Source: Deltaproteobacteria bacterium (lineage in GTDB: Bacteria; Desulfobacterota; Desulfomonilia; UBA1062). Taken from it: 43,581 nucleotides of DNA. Location: the NCBI GenBank assembly GCA_011046135.1, contig DSBG01000054.1, forward strand, positions 1-43,581. The letters are read 5' to 3'. The notes beneath the pieces are model-generated. The model made no database searches, was not told where the DNA came from, and saw nothing but the letters and a program-made list of their open reading frames with translations. Each line of letters starts with the position of its first letter. The stretch's first letter is position 1. Below are positions 6,548-15,673 of the stretch, piece after piece. A program made the position numbers and the translations under genes.

Positions 6548-7867
6548 ATGGGGAGCTTGTTTAAAACGGGTGTACGAAGTTTGCTGAAGCCGGCATGTCT
6601 TGTGCTGCTGGTTCTGTTTGTGTGTGTTTCTGGCCAGGTCATGGCAGAAAACAGGCCCGGCGCCGTGAACCTCACGATCTTCGGCGGGTACTATCACTTC
6701 GACCACGATCAGGACTTCGATGATGGATGGACCTATGGGGCCGGCCTGGGATACAACCTCACGGAAAACTGGGGCCTCGAGGCTGTGTACAACTACGTGA
6801 ACAGTAACGATCCCGGGGGCGTCAATCTGAGCACGTATACCTGGGATCCCTATGAGGATGTCGGGGCGCACGTCTACCATTTCGATGCCCTCTACCACTT
6901 CTTCCCAGAAAAGAAGCTGGTGCCGTATCTCGCCGCGGGACTCGGCGGGATAACCGTTGATAACGATCGGCAGGGAGCGAAGACCGACACCGATTTCCTG
7001 GTGAACTACGGCGGTGGATTGAAGTATTTCCTCTCTGAAGCCGTGGCCCTCAGGGGCGATATCCGGCACATCACCTCCTTTGACACGACCAACCACAACC
7101 TCGTTTACACCCTCGGTCTCATGTTTGCCCTGGGTGGAGAAAAGAAGGTGATTGACTCTGATGGAGACGGTGTCCCAGATGATATCGACAAGTGTCCGGG
7201 GACCCCTGCAGGAGTCAAGGTCGATGAGTTCGGCTGTCCCATCGACAGCGACGGTGACGGTGTACCCGACTACCTCGACAAGTGTCCTGGAACCCCTGCC
7301 GGGGTAAAGGTGGACAGGTTCGGCTGTCCCATCGACAGCGATGGTGACGGTGTACCCGACTACCTCGACAAGTGTCCGGCAACCCCTGCCGGAGTGAAGG
7401 TCGACCAGTTCGGCTGTCCCATCGACAGCGACGGTGACGGTGTGCCCGACTACCTCGACAAGTGTCCGGGAACCCCTGCCGGGGTGAAGGTCGATGAGCA
7501 GGGCTGTCCCATCGAAGAGGTTGTCGAGGGTGCCTTTGTCTTCAGAAACATCTATTTTGACTTTGCCAAGGCCGATCTCAAGGACGAGAGTCTCCCCATC
7601 CTGGACGAGGTTGTCATGTTCCTCGAGGGCAGTCCGGATGCCAAGATGGAGATCCAGGGCCACACCGACAACATCGGGCCGGCCGAGTACAACATGAGGC
7701 TCTCACAGCAGCGCGCCGAATCGGTGAAGATATACCTCGTGGAGAGCGGTATCGCTGCAGACAGGCTTGCCACGCGTGGATATGGACTGACCAGGCCCGT
7801 TGCGCCCAATGACACCGCGGAAAACAGGGCGAGGAACCGCAGGGTCGAGTTCGTCCCCATGAAGTAA
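6548..7867 (+). CDS. OmpA-family outer-membrane porin with thrombospondin type 3 repeats
   Basis: 439 residues. ATG 6548 is preferred over ATG 6542 because GAGGAGG (6534-6540) lies 7 bases before it but only 1 base before the earlier one. Order of parts: signal peptide (about 1-30, ending QVMA); an eight-strand OmpA-like beta-barrel (about 35-195, with alternating aromatic strands such as LTIFGGYYHF and FLVNYGGGLKYF); four 30-residue DSDGDGVPD-type calcium-binding repeats (about 203-322); and an OmpA C-terminal peptidoglycan-binding domain (about 330-439, with IQGHTDNIG and NRARNRRVEF). The protein should anchor the outer membrane to the wall. The repeats act as a calcium-stiffened spacer between barrel and wall domain. 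It has its own promoter. Confidence 0.9.
   Translation: MGSLFKTGVRSLLKPACLVLLVLFVCVSGQVMAENRPGAVNLTIFGGYYHFDHDQDFDDGWTYGAGLGYNLTENWGLEAVYNYVNSNDPGGVNLSTYTWDPYEDVGAHVYHFDALYHFFPEKKLVPYLAAGLGGITVDNDRQGAKTDTDFLVNYGGGLKYFLSEAVALRGDIRHITSFDTTNHNLVYTLGLMFALGGEKKVIDSDGDGVPDDIDKCPGTPAGVKVDEFGCPIDSDGDGVPDYLDKCPGTPAGVKVDRFGCPIDSDGDGVPDYLDKCPATPAGVKVDQFGCPIDSDGDGVPDYLDKCPGTPAGVKVDEQGCPIEEVVEGAFVFRNIYFDFAKADLKDESLPILDEVVMFLEGSPDAKMEIQGHTDNIGPAEYNMRLSQQRAESVKIYLVESGIAADRLATRGYGLTRPVAPNDTAENRARNRRVEFVPMK
7154..7513 (+). repeat. Four 90-bp tandem repeats encoding thrombospondin type 3 motifs
   Basis: Four in-frame 90-bp units each encode DSDGDGVPDxxDKCPxTPAGVKVD followed by a short variable stretch and GCPI. 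Units 2-4 are almost identical at the DNA level, indicating recent duplication or gene conversion. The repeat also creates a long but spurious open frame on the opposite strand. Confidence 0.9.
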
Positions 7868-7895
7868 GACAGTTCCGGCTATTATCCGGCTGAGT

Positions 7896-7931
7896 GGGGC
7901 ACGCAGGCGTTGCAAAGCCTGAAGGTGCCCC
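7896..7931 (+). terminator. Strong hairpin after the OmpA-like gene (no U-tract)
   Basis: GGGGCAC (7896-7902) pairs with GTGCCCC (7925-7931), and inside it CAGGC (7904-7908) pairs with GCCTG (7917-7921). It lies 29 bases past the stop codon. The following bases are CCTTGG rather than a T-run, so it may be an mRNA 3'-end stabiliser or an attenuating structure rather than a classical terminator. Confidence 0.45.
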
Positions 7932-8013
7932 CTTGGCCGGCACAGCGTGTTCATTAATTGGATGTGAGTGATCACGTCATTCTTCACATACTGCCACAAG
8001 GAGGTACCATCGC

Positions 8014-8826
8014 ATGGAAGACGCTTTGATCAAGATTCAGGAACTGATAACGCTCTACGGGCTCAAGGTCGTTGCCGCTCTTCTCATCTTCATCATAGGA
8101 CGATGGGTCGCCAAGATCCTTCAGCGCATTACGGGAAAGCTCCTTGCGAAACGCAACGTGGATCCCATGATCACCTCCTTTGTGGAGAACCTCGTCTACA
8201 TCGCGCTGCTCGTGTTTATCGTGATCGCGGCGCTTGCCCAGCTCGGGATACAGACCACCTCCTTCATTGCAATCATCGGTGCTGCAGGCTTGGCCATCGG
8301 CCTGGCACTGCAGGGGTCGCTCTCGAACTTTGCGGCAGGGTTCCTCATCCTCATCTTCAGGCCCTTCAAGGCGGGTGACTATGTGGAGGCAGCAGGGGTG
8401 GCCGGCAGCATCGAGAAGATCCAGGTATTTACGACCCAGCTTGCCACGGTTGACAACAGGACCGTGATCATTCCCAACTCAAAGATCATGGGGGACACCA
8501 TCACCAACTATTCAGCCAAGGAGAAACGGCGCGTTGACATGGTCTTCGGGGTGAGTTACAGCGATGACATCGACAAGGTCCGATCGCTCATCAAGGCCGT
8601 CATCGAGAGTGACAGCCGTATTCTCAAAGACCCCGAGCCCATGATCGTGGTGGGGTCCCTGGGGGACAGCAGCGTGAACTTTACCGTGCGTGTGTGGGTA
8701 AAGACTTCGGACTACTGGGGTGTGTTCTTCGACACCACTGAAGCGGTGAAGAAGCGCTTTGATGCTGAAGGAGTTAGCATCCCGTTCCCGCAGACCGATG
8801 TACACGTGTACCAGGCCCAGAAATAA
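8014..8826 (+). CDS. mscS: Small-conductance mechanosensitive channel (MscS family)
   Basis: 270 residues, the short MscS form. Three membrane helices lie at about residues 15-40, 57-80 and 84-115. The third is the pore helix with the Gly/Ala-rich knuckle GAAGLAIGLALQGSLSNFAAG, which is diagnostic. The cytoplasmic beta domain follows, with FRPFKAGDYVEAAGVAGSIEKIQVFTT and the VIIPNSKIM motif, then the alpha/beta domain to the C-terminus. It opens on membrane tension to release solutes during hypo-osmotic shock. AAGGAGG lies about 10 bases before the ATG. It stands alone between the OmpA-like and ferritin-like genes. Confidence 0.93.
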   Translation: MEDALIKIQELITLYGLKVVAALLIFIIGRWVAKILQRITGKLLAKRNVDPMITSFVENLVYIALLVFIVIAALAQLGIQTTSFIAIIGAAGLAIGLALQGSLSNFAAGFLILIFRPFKAGDYVEAAGVAGSIEKIQVFTTQLATVDNRTVIIPNSKIMGDTITNYSAKEKRRVDMVFGVSYSDDIDKVRSLIKAVIESDSRILKDPEPMIVVGSLGDSSVNFTVRVWVKTSDYWGVFFDTTEAVKKRFDAEGVSIPFPQTDVHVYQAQK

Positions 8827-8981
8827 GGGGGTCGTGAAGAAACTGGTTCCCGGCACACCGCTGCAGGAGCGTTCTGGAGCTGCTTGAGGTGTAACCCCCT
8901 GAACTGATCAACGAGGCACGATGAAAGTATGAAGGCGCCTCGTCAGGGTAGGGGTACCCCGCCATCACGAAAGGAGGGACA

Positions 8982-9506
8982 ATGGAGCCGAATGAGAGAC
9001 TCAGTGCCCTGGAACTGGCACTGAACAACGAAATGAACGAGAGGGAATTTTACCTGAAGCATGCCGAGCGAACCAGGAACCCGGTGGGCAAGGCCATGTT
9101 CCAGGAGATAGCGGACGACGAACTTGAGCACTACCAGCGGCTCAAGGACCTCCACCAGACGTGGGAGAAGAAAGAGAAGTGGCCCCAGAGCGTTCCGCTG
9201 ACCGTGAAGAACACGAACATCAAGGATGTTCTCAAAGGAGCGCTGCAAAACGTGGACAAGGAGGCGGTCAGCGACGACGACGATCTCAAGGCGCTCGCAA
9301 CCGCCACCGCCTTCGAGGCGAAGGGGGCGGAATTCTATGCAGGCCTGCGCGACGCGGTGACGGATGAGCGGGAAAAGGCCTTCTTCGATCTCCTCGCCCG
9401 GATAGAGCGTGAACACTACCTTTCCTTGAAGGATACCGAAGAGTACCTGAAGGATCCTGACTCCTGGTTCCGGAAGAGCGAACACCATTCTCTAGACGGC
9501 GCATAG
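8982..9506 (+). CDS. Ferritin-like / rubrerythrin-domain diiron protein
   Basis: 174 residues, predicted all-helical. Two E...ExxH-type ligand sets of a diiron four-helix bundle are visible: E17 and E21 with DDELEHYQ in the first half, and FEAKGAEFYAGL with IEREHYLSL in the second. This is the rubrerythrin-type ferritin-like domain but without the C-terminal rubredoxin. Such proteins usually reduce peroxide or handle iron in anaerobes, in the cytoplasm. AAAGGAGG sits close before the ATG. A good terminator follows at 9573-9599, so it forms a single-gene unit. Confidence 0.82.
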   Translation: MEPNERLSALELALNNEMNEREFYLKHAERTRNPVGKAMFQEIADDELEHYQRLKDLHQTWEKKEKWPQSVPLTVKNTNIKDVLKGALQNVDKEAVSDDDDLKALATATAFEAKGAEFYAGLRDAVTDEREKAFFDLLARIEREHYLSLKDTEEYLKDPDSWFRKSEHHSLDGA

Positions 9507-9572: not shown

Positions 9573-9599
9573 CCTGCAGATACCTGCAGGATCTTTTTT
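9573..9599 (+). terminator. Rho-independent terminator after the ferritin-like gene
   Basis: CCTGCAG (9573-9579), a four-base loop, CTGCAGG (9584-9590), then ATC and six T (9594-9599). This is a classical intrinsic terminator 66 bases after the stop codon. Confidence 0.85.
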
Positions 9600-9908: not shown

Positions 9909-10985
9909 ATGAGGACAATCGCCATTATGAACCAGAAAGGAGGTTGTGGAAAAACCACGACGACCATCAACCTCGGTGCGTGCCTCGCGTTTCTAGAGAA
10001 AAAGGTGCTCGTGGTTGATCTCGATCCCCAGGCTCATGCCACACTGGGCCTTGGGTTGAATCCAGGAGACTATTCAAAGAGTATCTATGATCTTCTCATG
10101 GGCAGAGAAAATGCGCCCATGGCCATCGAACAGGTCATCATACACCTGAACGAGAACCTCTCGCTGCTGCCCTCAGAGATTATGCTCTCCGCAGCAGAAC
10201 CCATCCTGCTCCAGAGGGACCACCGCGAACAGTATCTCGCCGGAGTCCTGGGCCAGATCCAGGATCGATATGAATTCATCATTATCGACTGTCCGCCGAA
10301 TATCGGGATCCTCACCTTCAATGCTCTGTTTGTGTGTACAGAGGCCATCATTCCCATCGAAAGCGGGTTGTTCTCCCTCCACGGACTGGCAAAACTTCTG
10401 GACACCATCAATATCGTGAACCTCAGGAGGGCGGACAAGATTGCAGTCACTGCCCTGGCCACCATGTTCGACCGCAGAACCCGTATCGCCCACGAGTCTC
10501 TGGATGAACTGAAAAAGTACATGGCCGGCAATGTCTTCGAGACGCTCATAAATTTCAACATCAAGCTCAAGGAGGCATCCAGCCTCGGAAAACCCATCAG
10601 CGACTATGCCATGAACTCAACGGGATTCGATGATTACCTCTCTCTGGCCAGGGAGGTGCTCCTGCTGAAAAAGCAGAGCAGGGCCAGGAAAAAGGAGGAG
10701 CAGGAGTTCATCAGGCCGGTCATTACCAAGGATGGGGTTGTATTCACCTATTACTCCCCCAAGGCGAACAAGGTCTACGTGGTGGCTGATTTCAACGACT
10801 GGAAAACGAGCGATACGCCCATGGAAAATGTGGATGGAACCGGCGTGTGGCAGACCATTGTGCCGCTTCCCAGCGGCAGGTATGAATACAAGTTCTTCGT
10901 CGATGGACAGTGGGTGAGCGATCCTGACAACCCCAACAAGATAGAAAATGAATACGGGGAGAACTCATACATCGAGATCAAATAA
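9909..10985 (+). CDS. ParA/Soj-type ATPase fused to a glycogen-binding (CBM48/AMPK-beta-like) domain
   Basis: 358 residues. Residues 1-255 form a complete ParA ATPase: deviant Walker A NQKGGCGKTTTTINLGA with K10 and K15, switch region VLVVDLDPQAHATLGLG, and FIIIDCPPNIG followed by TEAIIPIESG. A short charged linker (about 250-266) leads to a C-terminal immunoglobulin-like carbohydrate-binding module (267-358). Its FNDW (W298), YKFFVDGQW (K328, W335) and C-terminal N match the glycogen-contacting Trp, Lys and Asn of the AMPK beta subunit. ParA proteins form ATP-dependent gradients on DNA to position cargo. Here the cargo-binding part appears to be a glycan-binding domain, which suggests glycogen or alpha-glucan granules. 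Two bases separate it from the next gene. Domain calls are firm; the role is inference. Confidence 0.85.
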   Translation: MRTIAIMNQKGGCGKTTTTINLGACLAFLEKKVLVVDLDPQAHATLGLGLNPGDYSKSIYDLLMGRENAPMAIEQVIIHLNENLSLLPSEIMLSAAEPILLQRDHREQYLAGVLGQIQDRYEFIIIDCPPNIGILTFNALFVCTEAIIPIESGLFSLHGLAKLLDTINIVNLRRADKIAVTALATMFDRRTRIAHESLDELKKYMAGNVFETLINFNIKLKEASSLGKPISDYAMNSTGFDDYLSLAREVLLLKKQSRARKKEEQEFIRPVITKDGVVFTYYSPKANKVYVVADFNDWKTSDTPMENVDGTGVWQTIVPLPSGRYEYKFFVDGQWVSDPDNPNKIENEYGENSYIEIK

Positions 10986-10987
10986 CC

Positions 10988-11833
10988 ATGGATGACACCC
11001 AGGGACCGGTCAGAGGCCTCGAACAGGTAGCCCGATTCTACCTTTCGGACAATCAGGAAGACAGAGCCGGTCTCGAACAGCACCACCCATCGATCGACAC
11101 CCTTCGCACAGTGTTTGTCTGCGCACCCGGTTCTCCGAAGATGAGGACCTTTCTGCTCGCGAACCTCTGCCTCGAGCTTGCCAGAAACAGGCACCCTGTG
11201 ATCATTCGTGATCATCCGGGGGATACGGAACCATCCCTTGAGCAGATGATGAAGGCTCTCCCCACGAGACACACCCCAGAGGGTCTGCTCAAGGTGTGCC
11301 TCTACGGTCTTCCCGACATCCTCATCAAAGCGGGTGATTCCGCGGGGCAGCGACTGCCCTCTCGAGGAGAGGAACCTTCCGCAGGCATTCCCGGTACAGG
11401 ATCAGAATGGTTTTCCCTGGTCGGGCTTTCTGGATCCATCGAACGGCTCAAGGGTATGGGGCAAGGATCGAAGGTTACCCTGATGAGCAGGGATGATCCG
11501 ATGTCTCTCCTGAGATGCTACGCCTGCATACACGTGCTCGCAACGAGCGTCCCTGATCTCTACGTAAGCCTGATTCTCCATGGCGTGGGTGATCCACCAA
11601 CCATGCTCAGGCGTTCTCAGCTGTTTTCCGAGATCGTGTCCCGGAAATGCGGTGTTCGACCCAGATACCTGGGCTCTTTCGTACCCGATGCCTGGCTGGA
11701 GCACTCTATCAACGAAGGAAAACCCCTGGTGCTCTTTCACGAGGCATCCCCTGCACGGGAGCAGATGATAACCATTGCCGACCAGTTTCTCCTCTGGTTC
11801 CGGGAGGATCACTCTGAGGCACGTGTACCATGA
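10988..11833 (+). CDS. Degenerate MinD/FlhG-like P-loop protein, predicted non-ATP-hydrolysing
   Basis: 281 residues, not matching a named family that I can recall. Residues 41-75 have the layout of the first strand, P-loop and first helix of a MinD/FlhG ATPase: TVFVCAPGSPKMRTFLLANL then VIIRD. The P-loop glycines are lost and the Walker lysine position is Arg53. The C-terminal third (VRPRYLGSFVPDAWLEHSI then GKPLVLFHEASPAREQM) closely follows the end of FlhG/MinD proteins, where the chain reads like LGYIPYD...A...P.V...P.S.A. It starts 2 bases after the ParA-CBM48 stop, has no good ribosome site of its own and overlaps the next gene by 4 bases, so it is translationally coupled. It could be a regulatory partner or decoy subunit of the ParA protein. 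The remote-homology call is moderate. Confidence 0.6.
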   Translation: MDDTQGPVRGLEQVARFYLSDNQEDRAGLEQHHPSIDTLRTVFVCAPGSPKMRTFLLANLCLELARNRHPVIIRDHPGDTEPSLEQMMKALPTRHTPEGLLKVCLYGLPDILIKAGDSAGQRLPSRGEEPSAGIPGTGSEWFSLVGLSGSIERLKGMGQGSKVTLMSRDDPMSLLRCYACIHVLATSVPDLYVSLILHGVGDPPTMLRRSQLFSEIVSRKCGVRPRYLGSFVPDAWLEHSINEGKPLVLFHEASPAREQMITIADQFLLWFREDHSEARVP

Positions 11834-12399
11834 CAAGGATACTCAAACCCCTCCACATGACCGACCAGGAGCAGGTCACCCGGATCTGCGCGCACTACTT
11901 TGTGGCGGAACGCGGCTTCGAAATCCTCGAGTATCACCTGGGAAACCTCTACACCGGGAGCGTCGATCTGCTCGCAGCTTACGAAGGACGGATTTACCTC
12001 ATCTTTATCAACACCGCGAATTTTTCAGACACCCTGGTGCGTTCCCTCACGGGATACCAGAGATTCATGCAGAATCGGGAATTTCTCGCAAGGGCCTACG
12101 GCGGAGAGCATCTCGATTTCACTCGGCATCCCGTACTCGCGATCCTGTCTCCTTCTTTTCCGGGCGACACAGCCCTTGTCGTTCAGGAGACACTGCGGAT
12201 ACCTGTAGAATGGTATCGTTACCTGCTCTTCGGATCACAAAGCAACCCGGAACTTTTTGTGGAGGCCCTCGATCGAGAAAAGGCAGATCCACCGCTTGAG
12301 GAGGTGGATCTTGGTGCGCTCAGAACAAACCTTCACATCGAGCACGCCGGACTCAGCGACGAAGACATTCTGGATTTTCTCGAAAAAATCCGTGCATGA
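11830..12399 (+). CDS. Unknown protein, possibly a degenerate PD-(D/E)XK-like fold
   Basis: 189 residues; I do not recognise a named family. The N-terminal 70 residues (ERGFEILEYHLGN, then GSVDLLAAYEGRIYLIFIN) follow the alpha-beta-beta-beta order of restriction-endonuclease-like folds. E31 and D46 are in place, but the final E-x-K is replaced by I-F-I-N, so catalysis is unlikely. A second part (about 95-150) has HPVLAILSPSFPGDTALVV and VEWYRYLLF. The acidic C-terminus (LSDEDILDFLEKI) could be a short interaction helix. The start codon overlaps the previous stop as ATGA, placing it in the ParA-CBM48 operon as its last gene. There is no signal peptide or membrane segment, so it is cytoplasmic. 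Confidence 0.5.
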   Translation: MTRILKPLHMTDQEQVTRICAHYFVAERGFEILEYHLGNLYTGSVDLLAAYEGRIYLIFINTANFSDTLVRSLTGYQRFMQNREFLARAYGGEHLDFTRHPVLAILSPSFPGDTALVVQETLRIPVEWYRYLLFGSQSNPELFVEALDREKADPPLEEVDLGALRTNLHIEHAGLSDEDILDFLEKIRA

Positions 12400-12566: not shown

Positions 12567-13274
12567 ATGACAAAGACACGGTTTGTCCTGATGGTCGTCG
12601 TTGTTCTCTCAGCCGGCCTTTCGGGCACCCTCTCCCTTGCCAGTGATGTTCCTTCGCTGAGGAGCGCGATGGTGAAAGATCAGATCCGTTCTCGCGGGAT
12701 CGACGACCCGGCGACACTGAAGGCAATGGGTGCTGTTGAGAGGCACCTGTTTGTTCCGGAGTCGCTCAGATCGAGCGCCTACCGCGATAGACCTCTGCCC
12801 ATCGGTCATGGCCAGACCATCTCGCAGCCATATATCGTCGCCTACATGACGAGCGTGATCCAGCCACGGGAAGACTTCACTGTTCTCGAGATCGGAACAG
12901 GCTCGGGGTACCAGGCCGCGGTTCTCTCGGAGATCGTGAAGCGTGTGTACACCGTTGAGATCATTCCCGAACTCGCGGAATCTGCGACGAAGCGGCTTCA
13001 GGGCCTGGGATACGCCAATGTGAGCGTGTCGCGGAACGATGGATATTTTGGATGGAAGGAGTACGCTCCCTATGATGCCATTGTCGTCACGGCGGCTGCC
13101 GACTTCATACCGCCTCCCCTGATCGAGCAGCTCAAGGATGGCGGAAGAATGATCATTCCCGTGGGTTCTCCGTTCATGGTGCAGACACTGACCCTGGTGG
13201 AGAAACAGGGAGACACGATCACCACCACGGCCCTCATGCCGGTACGGTTCGTCCCCTTCCGGAGAGGGAATTGA
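12567..13274 (+). CDS. pcm: Protein-L-isoaspartate O-methyltransferase, exported form
   Basis: 235 residues. The methyltransferase begins with LRSAMVKDQIRSRGIDDPATLKAM, then PLPIGHGQTISQPYIVA, the SAM-binding motif VLEIGTGSGYQAAVLSEI, and YDAIVVTAA with the PVG loop; all are PCMT hallmarks. The enzyme methylates isoaspartyl residues in damaged proteins to start their repair. An N-terminal hydrophobic segment (about residues 5-25, ending SLAS) looks like a signal peptide, so this copy probably acts in the periplasm, where SAM supply is a puzzle. GAAGGAGG lies about 9 bases before the ATG. A -10-like TATACT is at 12520-12525 with no clear -35. The next gene starts inside its stop codon. Confidence 0.9.
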   Translation: MTKTRFVLMVVVVLSAGLSGTLSLASDVPSLRSAMVKDQIRSRGIDDPATLKAMGAVERHLFVPESLRSSAYRDRPLPIGHGQTISQPYIVAYMTSVIQPREDFTVLEIGTGSGYQAAVLSEIVKRVYTVEIIPELAESATKRLQGLGYANVSVSRNDGYFGWKEYAPYDAIVVTAAADFIPPPLIEQLKDGGRMIIPVGSPFMVQTLTLVEKQGDTITTTALMPVRFVPFRRGN

Positions 13275-15673
13275 AAGGATACGAGCCCCTTTCCTGGCGG
13301 CTGCTCTGCTCTCTCGGGTTTCTCTCATCGGCGTTGATCGCCTACCAGATTGTTCTCATGCAGGTTCTCTCCATCACGCAGTGGCATCACTTCGCCTACA
13401 TGGTGATCTCTCTGGCGCTGCTGGGATTCGGCGTTTCAGGAACCGTACTCGCTCTCTTCCGGACGTTCTTCACCACTCGACACGAGGTGATGTTGCCGAT
13501 GCTCATGACCATCACGGCGGGGCTCATGGCAACCGTGGTCAGGTTTTCCCAGCACGAATTCATCCGGTTCGATTCCTTCCTCCTCTTCTCGGAACCAACC
13601 CAGCTGGCACAGCTGTTCATCACCTCTTTTCTGTTCATGCTGCCGTTCTTTACCAGTGCGTTGGCCATCGGGATCGCGTTTGTATGCCATGCAGAGCGAA
13701 TCGGCATGCTCTACAGTGCAAATCTCGCGGGTTCGGGTGCCGGAGGTCTCGGCGTTATCGGTCTTTTCTGGGTTTTGTTTCCTGAACAGCTCCCTGCTGT
13801 CATAGCCCTCGTGCCCCTGGGAGCGTCTCTCCTGCTTCTCGACAGGCGGGTTCCCCGCTCGTTGCTCTGCCTGATCGTTCTCTCCGGAGGCATGGTTTTT
13901 TTGATGCTCCTGAATCCCCCGGCGCTGATCCTCTCCGAATTCAAGGCAGCGAGAAAGGCCCTGGAGATACCGGATTCCGCTGTTCTTCTCAGAAAGAATT
14001 CACCGTACGGCCAGATCGAGCTGATCACCTCCCCCGGCTTGAGGTATGCCCCGGGATTGAGTCTCGCCTTTACCGGAGAGGTCCCGGTCATTAATGGCGT
14101 CTTTCTCAATGGTGACTGGATCGGGCCTCGACTGGAGATGGAGGAACATGACACCGCGAAGCTGTTAGCGTTCACCACGAAGGCCGTAGCCTATGCCATG
14201 GGGGAGAGGCTGCGGGTTCTCGTTCTGGATGCGGGCACAGGTGCCGATATTCTCCTGGCCATTGAGAAGGGCACCGGGAAGGTTCACGCAGTGGAAGAGA
14301 ATGCCGCGCTCCTTGGGGTCTTGCTCCAGGGGGGCGATGGCTTGATCCCTCACCTCCAACCTACGGTCGAGCTCTTCATCAGGGGGTCCCGCCCCTACAT
14401 CGCATCCGCGGCTTCGAGGCACTCCTACGAACTCATCATGCTCCCGGACATCGGAACCTTCGGGGGAGGGTCCGGGATCGGGGCCCTCGAGGAAACGTAT
14501 CTCATGACCGTCGAAGCACTCGAGCAGATGTGGAACCTCCTGAGCCCCGAGGGTGCTCTCCTGGTGAGCTGCTACCGCGACTACCCCAGCAGGAACCCCC
14601 TGAGGATCCTCGCCAGCGTCGTACATGTTCTGAAATCACAGGGTATGGACAACCCCCGGGAACATATCGCAGCAATAAGCGGGTGGGCGAGTATGAGTTT
14701 CATCGTGAAGAAAAGCCCCATCTCTTCGAGGGAAGCAGGGAACATACGGAGGTTCTGCGCCGAGATGCTCTTTGACCCGCTGCTGCTCCCGGACATCATG
14801 CCTGAAGAGAGGACACGCTACAACCGGCTCATGGAGGAAGATCTCATTGTCTTGTTCGATGGGATCCTTGCTCCTGATCGAGGGGCCTTGATCAGGGGGT
14901 ATGAATTCGACATCAGGCCCATCACGGATGACAGGCCGTATTTCTCGCAGTTTCTCCGCTTCAGGAGCGTGCCCGACATTGTCCAACGCTACGGCAGGCA
15001 GGGGATGCCGTTCCTCGAACTCGGGTATGTAATCCTCGTTTTTACCCTGGTACAGATTGCAGTTGCGGCCGTTATCCTGATTCTCCTGCCTCTCTTCAGG
15101 ATCGGCTGGAAGTCCGAGAGATCCTCCCGGGTGCTCGTGTACTTCGGATGTATCGGGATCGGATACATGTTTGTGGAGATCGTACTCATCTCGAAATTCA
15201 TCCTCTACTTCGGCAACGCCCTCTACGCCGCTTCAGCGGTCATAAGCTGCATGCTTATATTTTCAGGTGTGGGAAGCCTGCTGACCTCCCGGGTGCGAAC
15301 AGGTGGTCGGGGTGCACTCTCGATACTCACCACGATCGCACTCATGATCCTCCTGGGTTCTGTCGTGATCTCACCGCTTTTGAGGGAGACCATGTCTTTT
15401 CCGGTGCTCGTCAAGGGATTCCTCTCCCTGCTCCTCATGGGACCCCTCGCCGTTCTCATGGGGATGCCGTTTCCTCTGGGGCTCAGGGCAGTTGCCCGGC
15501 GGGAAGAACCACTGGTGCCCTGGGCATGGGGAATCAATGGGTGCCTGTCTGTTATCAGTGCACCTGCAGCCACACTTATCGCGGTCGAATTCGGTTTCAG
15601 CGTGGTGATGTGGTGTGCTGCAGGCGTATATGCGGCGGCCCTGGCAGTCTCCTGGCTCAACAGAAAGTATTGA
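13271..15673 (+). CDS. Membrane-embedded spermidine-synthase-like protein
   Basis: 800 residues from a TTG that overlaps the previous TGA. About seven membrane helices fill residues 10-230. The soluble middle (about 240-560) resembles the aminopropyltransferase Rossmann domain, with NSPYGQIELI, then VLVLDAGTGADILLAIE and VHAVEENA. The family marker ITDDRPYFSQFL comes near residue 555. A further block of about six helices ends the chain. Proteins with this spermidine-synthase core between membrane helices are widespread in Desulfobacterota but have no established reaction. The GTGAD loop could hold SAM or decarboxylated SAM. Its 4-base overlap with the exported isoaspartyl methyltransferase suggests a shared task, for instance periplasmic or envelope methyl or aminopropyl transfer; this is inference. 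Confidence 0.75.
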   Translation: MKGYEPLSWRLLCSLGFLSSALIAYQIVLMQVLSITQWHHFAYMVISLALLGFGVSGTVLALFRTFFTTRHEVMLPMLMTITAGLMATVVRFSQHEFIRFDSFLLFSEPTQLAQLFITSFLFMLPFFTSALAIGIAFVCHAERIGMLYSANLAGSGAGGLGVIGLFWVLFPEQLPAVIALVPLGASLLLLDRRVPRSLLCLIVLSGGMVFLMLLNPPALILSEFKAARKALEIPDSAVLLRKNSPYGQIELITSPGLRYAPGLSLAFTGEVPVINGVFLNGDWIGPRLEMEEHDTAKLLAFTTKAVAYAMGERLRVLVLDAGTGADILLAIEKGTGKVHAVEENAALLGVLLQGGDGLIPHLQPTVELFIRGSRPYIASAASRHSYELIMLPDIGTFGGGSGIGALEETYLMTVEALEQMWNLLSPEGALLVSCYRDYPSRNPLRILASVVHVLKSQGMDNPREHIAAISGWASMSFIVKKSPISSREAGNIRRFCAEMLFDPLLLPDIMPEERTRYNRLMEEDLIVLFDGILAPDRGALIRGYEFDIRPITDDRPYFSQFLRFRSVPDIVQRYGRQGMPFLELGYVILVFTLVQIAVAAVILILLPLFRIGWKSERSSRVLVYFGCIGIGYMFVEIVLISKFILYFGNALYAASAVISCMLIFSGVGSLLTSRVRTGGRGALSILTTIALMILLGSVVISPLLRETMSFPVLVKGFLSLLLMGPLAVLMGMPFPLGLRAVARREEPLVPWAWGINGCLSVISAPAATLIAVEFGFSVVMWCAAGVYAAALAVSWLNRKY

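Follow-up and report, generated by a model that had tools for sequence, protein, structure and literature searches.

ATPases of the ParA/MinD family position cargos that include chromosomes, plasmids, carboxysomes, chemosensory clusters, flagella and the divisome. To our knowledge, the cargo in the known ParA/MinD systems is bound by the partner protein and not by the ATPase, a point that counts against the reading of the locus proposed below. Partner proteins generally contact these ATPases through charged N-terminal stretches (PMC10241942), and ParB can stimulate ParA through an N-terminal peptide alone (PMC12462528). The main text of the former paper, which deals with ParA/MinD positioning systems, makes no mention of glycogen; a literature search turned up no publication on a ParA that carries a CBM48 module or on glycogen placed by a ParA, and active placement or inheritance of glycogen by bacteria is not addressed in the literature that was found.

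The window analyzed here, the whole 43,581-nucleotide stretch of contig DSBG01000054.1 (assembly GCA_011046135.1), contains on its plus strand three open reading frames designated A (9909..10985, 358 aa), B (10988..11833, 281 aa) and C (11830..12399, 189 aa), with a 2-bp gap between A and B and a 4-bp ATGA overlap between B and C, as the original prediction had said. A is a ParA-CBM48 fusion, recognized by its matches to Pfam AAA_31, AMPK1_CBM and CBM_48 and by its orthologues; B is a degenerate protein of predicted FlhG/MinD fold and a putative adaptor and ATPase activator, and C probably adopts a PD-(D/E)XK-like fold that is catalytically dead, both assigned with AF2, Foldseek and hhalign. 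The locus had also been described as bounded by a terminator upstream and by a new transcription unit downstream. A terminator-like hairpin 3' of the upstream rubrerythrin gene (9573..9590, plus strand) fits the first boundary, but the pattern scan that located it observed 5 sites versus 3.5 expected in shuffles and is near chance overall; at the second boundary, the scan found no plus-strand terminator-like site between C and the start of the next gene at 12567. The region 12567-15673 of the window holds a PCMT gene followed by a gene for an 800-aa membrane protein without a significant Pfam match, and in G007 (locus L037) A-B-C is likewise followed by a PCMT-like gene and by the gene of a protein of 801 aa with a similar N-terminus.

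Full-length A was found in 15 genomes of the family to which the window belongs, counting its own, and the order and close spacing of A-B-C are kept at all 15 loci, with 58-65% identity between A and its orthologues in the 14 other genomes; a single-gene artefact is ruled out by this conservation. Three family genomes that lack A (G004, G006 and G017) yielded neither C nor B, except for a weak MinD/FlhG-type match to B in G006. In G023 (locus L046, 7719-9411), B and C are intact, whereas all that is left of A is a piece of the CBM, interrupted by an in-frame stop and located between rubrerythrin and B inside a 264-kb contig. Relatives of all three proteins also occur in Myxococcota, Acidobacteria and Planctomycetes, and the expectation that the three genes co-occur across genomes holds; the description of the locus as an operon, as being of ParA type and as a new system stands, and its distribution is far wider than had been supposed.

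The ATPase domain of A (about residues 1-253; 9909..10667, plus strand) matches AAA_31 with an E value of 1.7e-52 (residues 1-178) and contains the deviant Walker A sequence QKGGCGKTT, which has the form KGGxGK[T/S]. The signature lysine, Lys10, and Lys15 are present in all 79 homologues that cover the region, and the membership of A among the ParA ATPases is established at the level of sequence. At the position of Soj (NxRLxEAP) where a basic residue is associated with non-specific binding of DNA, Soj has the arginine of NIRLCEAPS and A of the window has lysine (NIKLKEASS), and either arginine or lysine is found in the family. The C-terminal module of A (10743..10982, plus strand) is of the CBM48/AMPK-beta glycogen-binding type: residues 274-358 match AMPK1_CBM (E value 9.7e-15) and CBM_48 (2.6e-13), and among solved structures its closest relatives are AMPK beta subunits (E value 1e-10). 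The glycan-contact residues of the AMPK beta module, W100, K126 and W133 (PMC2642990), correspond to W298, K328 and W335 of A, and this Trp, Lys and Trp set is present in the window and its family. Across homologues, W298 is conserved in 80 of 80, W335 in 77 of 80 and N352 in 72 of 80; the position of K328 is lysine in the family and mostly arginine in other phyla, and the position of AMPK L146 is F/Y in the family and T/A/M in four Myxococcota without alpha-glucan enzymes.

B has no match in Pfam or NCBIfam. Its AF2 model (pLDDT 79) matches FlhG, FleN and MinD in Foldseek searches, with FlhG 4rz2 the best (E value 1.1e-9), and an alignment of 16 orthologues reveals at 11120..11146 (plus strand) a dead P-loop from which the Walker lysine is absent in every sequence. 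Because the modeled fold is that of FlhG/FleN/MinD and the P-loop lysine is missing, B appears to be a pseudo-ATPase, and the name pseudo-MinD that had been given to it is apt. Comparison of B with the Myxococcota B by hhalign gave 98.6% over 8-275. The N-terminus of B carries a ParB-like motif, RGLEQVARFYLS (11012..11047, plus strand), identified in the family alignment, of which R9, G10 and L19 are invariant in 16 sequences. Its family form is [RK]LGRGLx[DE][VI]SxFYLS, from which the version in the window, VRGLEQVARFYLS, is slightly degenerate, as is that of one other family member. The ParB of the same genome holds RLGRGIDALFSD close to its N-terminus, and the ParB proteins of four related genomes start with RLGRGIDALF or GLGKGLxA[IL]. 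Written more loosely, the family motif is [RK]LGRGL..[VI]S..[FY]L[ST], and a similar N-terminal motif was counted, partly by eye, in the downstream partner at 62 of 79 ParA-CBM loci from various phyla, 58 of them clear cases and 4 weaker ones. With the motif present in every B of the family, B has what is expected of an adjacent partner that contacts its ATPase through a short charged N-terminal stretch, and is predicted to interact with A. The B of G172 (locus L208, 4100-4996) includes a MerR/HTH_17-type helix-turn-helix, which suggests that some members may contact DNA.

C likewise has no Pfam or NCBIfam match, and Pfam and PDB sequence searches with it yielded nothing useful; B and C represent protein families without any annotation. 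The AF2 model of C (pLDDT 83) has weak Foldseek matches to PD-(D/E)XK proteins, the best with an E value of 1.8e-3. In an alignment of the core of C, DLLAAYEGRIYLIFINT (11965..12015, plus strand), Asp46 is invariant in 16 sequences but the E-x-K of the catalytic D...ExK pattern is replaced. An active nuclease was rejected as a candidate function because the ExK is missing, and C is modeled as a probable inactive PD-(D/E)XK fold. By hhalign, C matches the Myxococcota C at 96.5% and the C region of an Acidobacteria fusion at 97.0%; in Sedimentisphaerales (Planctomycetota), B is fused to a C-like C-terminus (94.5% by profile comparison). The Acidobacteria locus L108 (1277-3211) combines ParA, a CBM that is only marginal, the motif LGRGLEDVS and C in one chain with no MinD domain, which suggests that the minimal set consists of the ATPase, the CBM, the motif and C.

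In a scan of genome contigs, full-length ParA-CBM was found in about ten phyla among the best 80 loci, the carriers besides 'Deltaproteobacteria' being Planctomycetota, Zixibacteria, Omnitrophota, Myxococcota, Latescibacterota, Krumholzibacteriota, Acidobacteria, Auribacterota and Margulisbacteria. It occurs in 107 of 193 sampled Omnitrophota genomes and is rare in the window's phylum outside the window's own family (G042, G116, G172 and G220 among 247 sampled genomes). A tree of ParA domains, limited as a test by the choice of its sequences for their similarity to A, splits ParA-CBM and a small CBM-less sister clade from chromosomal ParA with a support of 1.0. The profile of B alone was discarded as a marker of the system; it matches 170 of 395 genomes of the phylum, mostly through the C-terminal half that is shared with MinD/FlhG-type proteins. 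At locus L216 of G242 (7531-9140), the gene after a sister ParA without a CBM encodes a protein of 184 aa that has a similar motif, RSLKDISRTFIT, and lacks a MinD domain; the two may form a related system for a different cargo. In the Myxococcota-type loci L109, L115, L123, L124, L131, L140 and L146, a gene for an ECF-type sigma factor lies 3' of A-B(-C), a recurrence that could reflect shared ancestry.

In Omnitrophota the partner is swapped relative to B. The -1 gene at 45 of 60 ParA-CBM loci encodes a single-TM protein with the N-terminal motif [DE]IYxHLAxxYL[DG], the likeness of which to the motif of B was judged by eye; B is present at 8 of the 60 loci, and none has both partners. A GH57 gene is present nearby at 32 loci, at position -2 in most of them; among the 45 membrane-partner loci, 31 contain it. 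In loci L257-L316, ParA-CBM is clustered with porin-like, GH57, single-TM motif, DUF4870-like and basic translation-factor-like genes, and this cluster is conserved.

The original prediction held that the cargo is a storage alpha-glucan and that the locus tracks with glycogen genes, and it took occurrence in species that make no alpha-glucan as a refutation. Tracking was found in part. Genes for a debranching enzyme, GT4/5, GH57 and a glycogen synthase-phosphorylase fusion precede A-B-C on one strand in G005, with 292 bp before A; glgB adjoins B in G172; and glgA and a GH57 gene are upstream in L102. Within the window's family, canonical GlgA is encoded by 10 of 11 genomes with A versus 1 of 5 without (p=0.013), an association that does not reach significance when only genomes of 90% completeness or more are counted. 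The corresponding numbers for Omnitrophota, 101 of 107 genomes with A versus 70 of 86 without (p=0.006), indicate a weak association that is confounded by small genomes, and one of the six Omnitrophota carriers without GlgA was classed as such because it did not appear in a list. Glycogen queries found no glycogen genes near A-B-C in most family members, the window included, and none adjoining most of the other ParA-CBM loci. Against tracking, no canonical GlgA, glycogen phosphorylase, GH13 or GH57 was found in six genomes that have ParA-CBM and a B-type partner: four Myxococcota of 4.6-5.5 Mb (G436, G446, G447 and G454), a 4.3-Mb single chromosome and a 2.5-Mb genome, the last two being G438 (Latescibacterota; one chromosome) and G439, both with marginal PF08323 matches only. 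Thus storage alpha-glucan is not the universal cargo; a universal glycogen cargo was ruled out, and the strict storage-glucan version of the prediction fails as a general rule. This failure does not extend to the window's lineage, where glycogen is a plausible cargo.

The claim that the system positions something is reasonable in light of the invariant Walker signature lysine, the distinct ParA branch and the activator-like N-terminal motif of the partner, and we infer a positioning system from the partner motif together with the operon. Our leading proposal, which falls somewhat short of being probable, is that A-B-C acts as a chromosomal module of ParA type for positioning or partition in which CBM48 holds the cargo, the likeliest cargo here being glycogen particles or enzymes attached to them. 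ATP-bound dimers of A would sit on the nucleoid by binding DNA, and the CBM48 at the C-terminus of A would grip the cargo by binding its glycan. B would be the partner, with a basic LGRGL-type N-terminal peptide that docks on the dimer of A and stimulates ATP hydrolysis, and the dead MinD fold of B, with C, would form a scaffold. The outcome would be gradients like those by which ParA systems space and distribute their cargo. Against this proposal count, besides the six carriers without alpha-glucan enzymes and the lack of nearby glycogen genes in most family members, the arginine that mostly replaces K328 in other phyla and the helix-turn-helix in the B of G172. A wider proposal, held rather more tentatively, is that ParA-CBM48 is an ancient and widespread branch of ParA that has its CBM on the ATPase and an exchangeable partner, either the cytosolic pseudo-MinD with C or a membrane-anchored protein, and that both places and shares out a polysaccharide. 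If true, this would make ParA-CBM48 the first system of ParA type to position a carbohydrate; a ParA with a glycogen-type module in many phyla and in more than half of the sampled Omnitrophota makes the question of glycogen placement testable with a named set of genes.

The six carriers in which no alpha-glucan enzymes were found speak for a positioning module of the same ParA type in which CBM48 is not on storage alpha-glucan, being instead directed to another glycan or acting as a protein-docking Ig-like domain, with some other cargo such as envelope-polysaccharide or membrane assembly. The Omnitrophota partner, with its single TM, its outer domain and its porin-like neighbor, points the same way, as does the difference between the window's family and the four alpha-glucan-negative Myxococcota at the position of AMPK L146. 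We consider this reading possible but doubtful, given that even the genomes without alpha-glucan enzymes retain both Trp and the Asn of the AMPK-type glycan site, that glycogen genes are adjacent in G005, G172 and L102, and that GH57 stands beside ParA-CBM in Omnitrophota. It is unlikely that the locus encodes a glycogen-sensing regulatory switch, in which the CBM would sense glucan as in AMPK beta, which employs its CBM as a glycogen sensor (PMC2642990), and the ATPase-pseudoATPase pair would control either enzymes or, in the manner of FleN with FleQ, transcription. Although the fold of B is closest to FlhG/FleN, the B of G172 has its MerR-type helix-turn-helix and a MerR-like gene lies upstream in G042/G116, A is a Soj/ParA-type and not an FlhG-type ATPase, and no regulator gene recurs beside A in the window's family.

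A DNA partition system, plasmid-like or chromosomal, to which the CBM would be incidental, is very improbable. The ParB-like LGRGL motif of B, the similarity of C to nuclease folds and the occasional MerR-like domain could be accommodated by it, but no ParB domain was found in B or C, an ordinary Soj/ParB pair is also present in the four genomes checked, and none of 72,556 plasmid records matches more than 80% of A, that is, none has the CBM fusion; plasmid partition was rejected on this last ground. That an orphan ParA came to lie beside two unrelated genes by chance might be read into G023, with its intact B and C beside a broken CBM remnant of A, but this is scarcely credible, as it is already refuted by the same order and spacing at 15 of 15 family loci and by the fusion proteins of other phyla.

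Compared part by part with described proteins, the module of A is of the same type as the CBM48 of the AMPK beta subunit and has the same glycan-contact residues, but it is attached to ParA instead of a kinase regulatory subunit, and its binding of glycan is predicted from these residues. B has the fold of FlhG, FleN and MinD but no Walker lysine, and C is weakly similar in fold to PD-(D/E)XK nuclease-like proteins such as XisH and YaeQ but has lost the E-x-K, has no Pfam match and is probably not a nuclease. As a system, A-B-C resembles ParABS (Soj/Spo0J) in the Soj-like ATPase domain of A and in the RLGRGL motif of the B family, which is similar to RLGRGIDAL in the ParB of the same genome; unlike ParABS, it has no known parS and, B and C being without Pfam or NCBIfam matches, no ParB with CTPase/ParBc and HTH domains, its ATPase bears a CBM48, and its ParA belongs to a separate branch. 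With McdAB and the other protein-cargo systems (ParC, PpfA, PomXYZ), it shares a ParA-family ATPase and a partner that has a basic N-terminal motif and is otherwise diverse (PMC10241942), but in A-B-C the ATPase itself would carry the cargo domain, and a folded pseudo-MinD together with C would serve as the partner.
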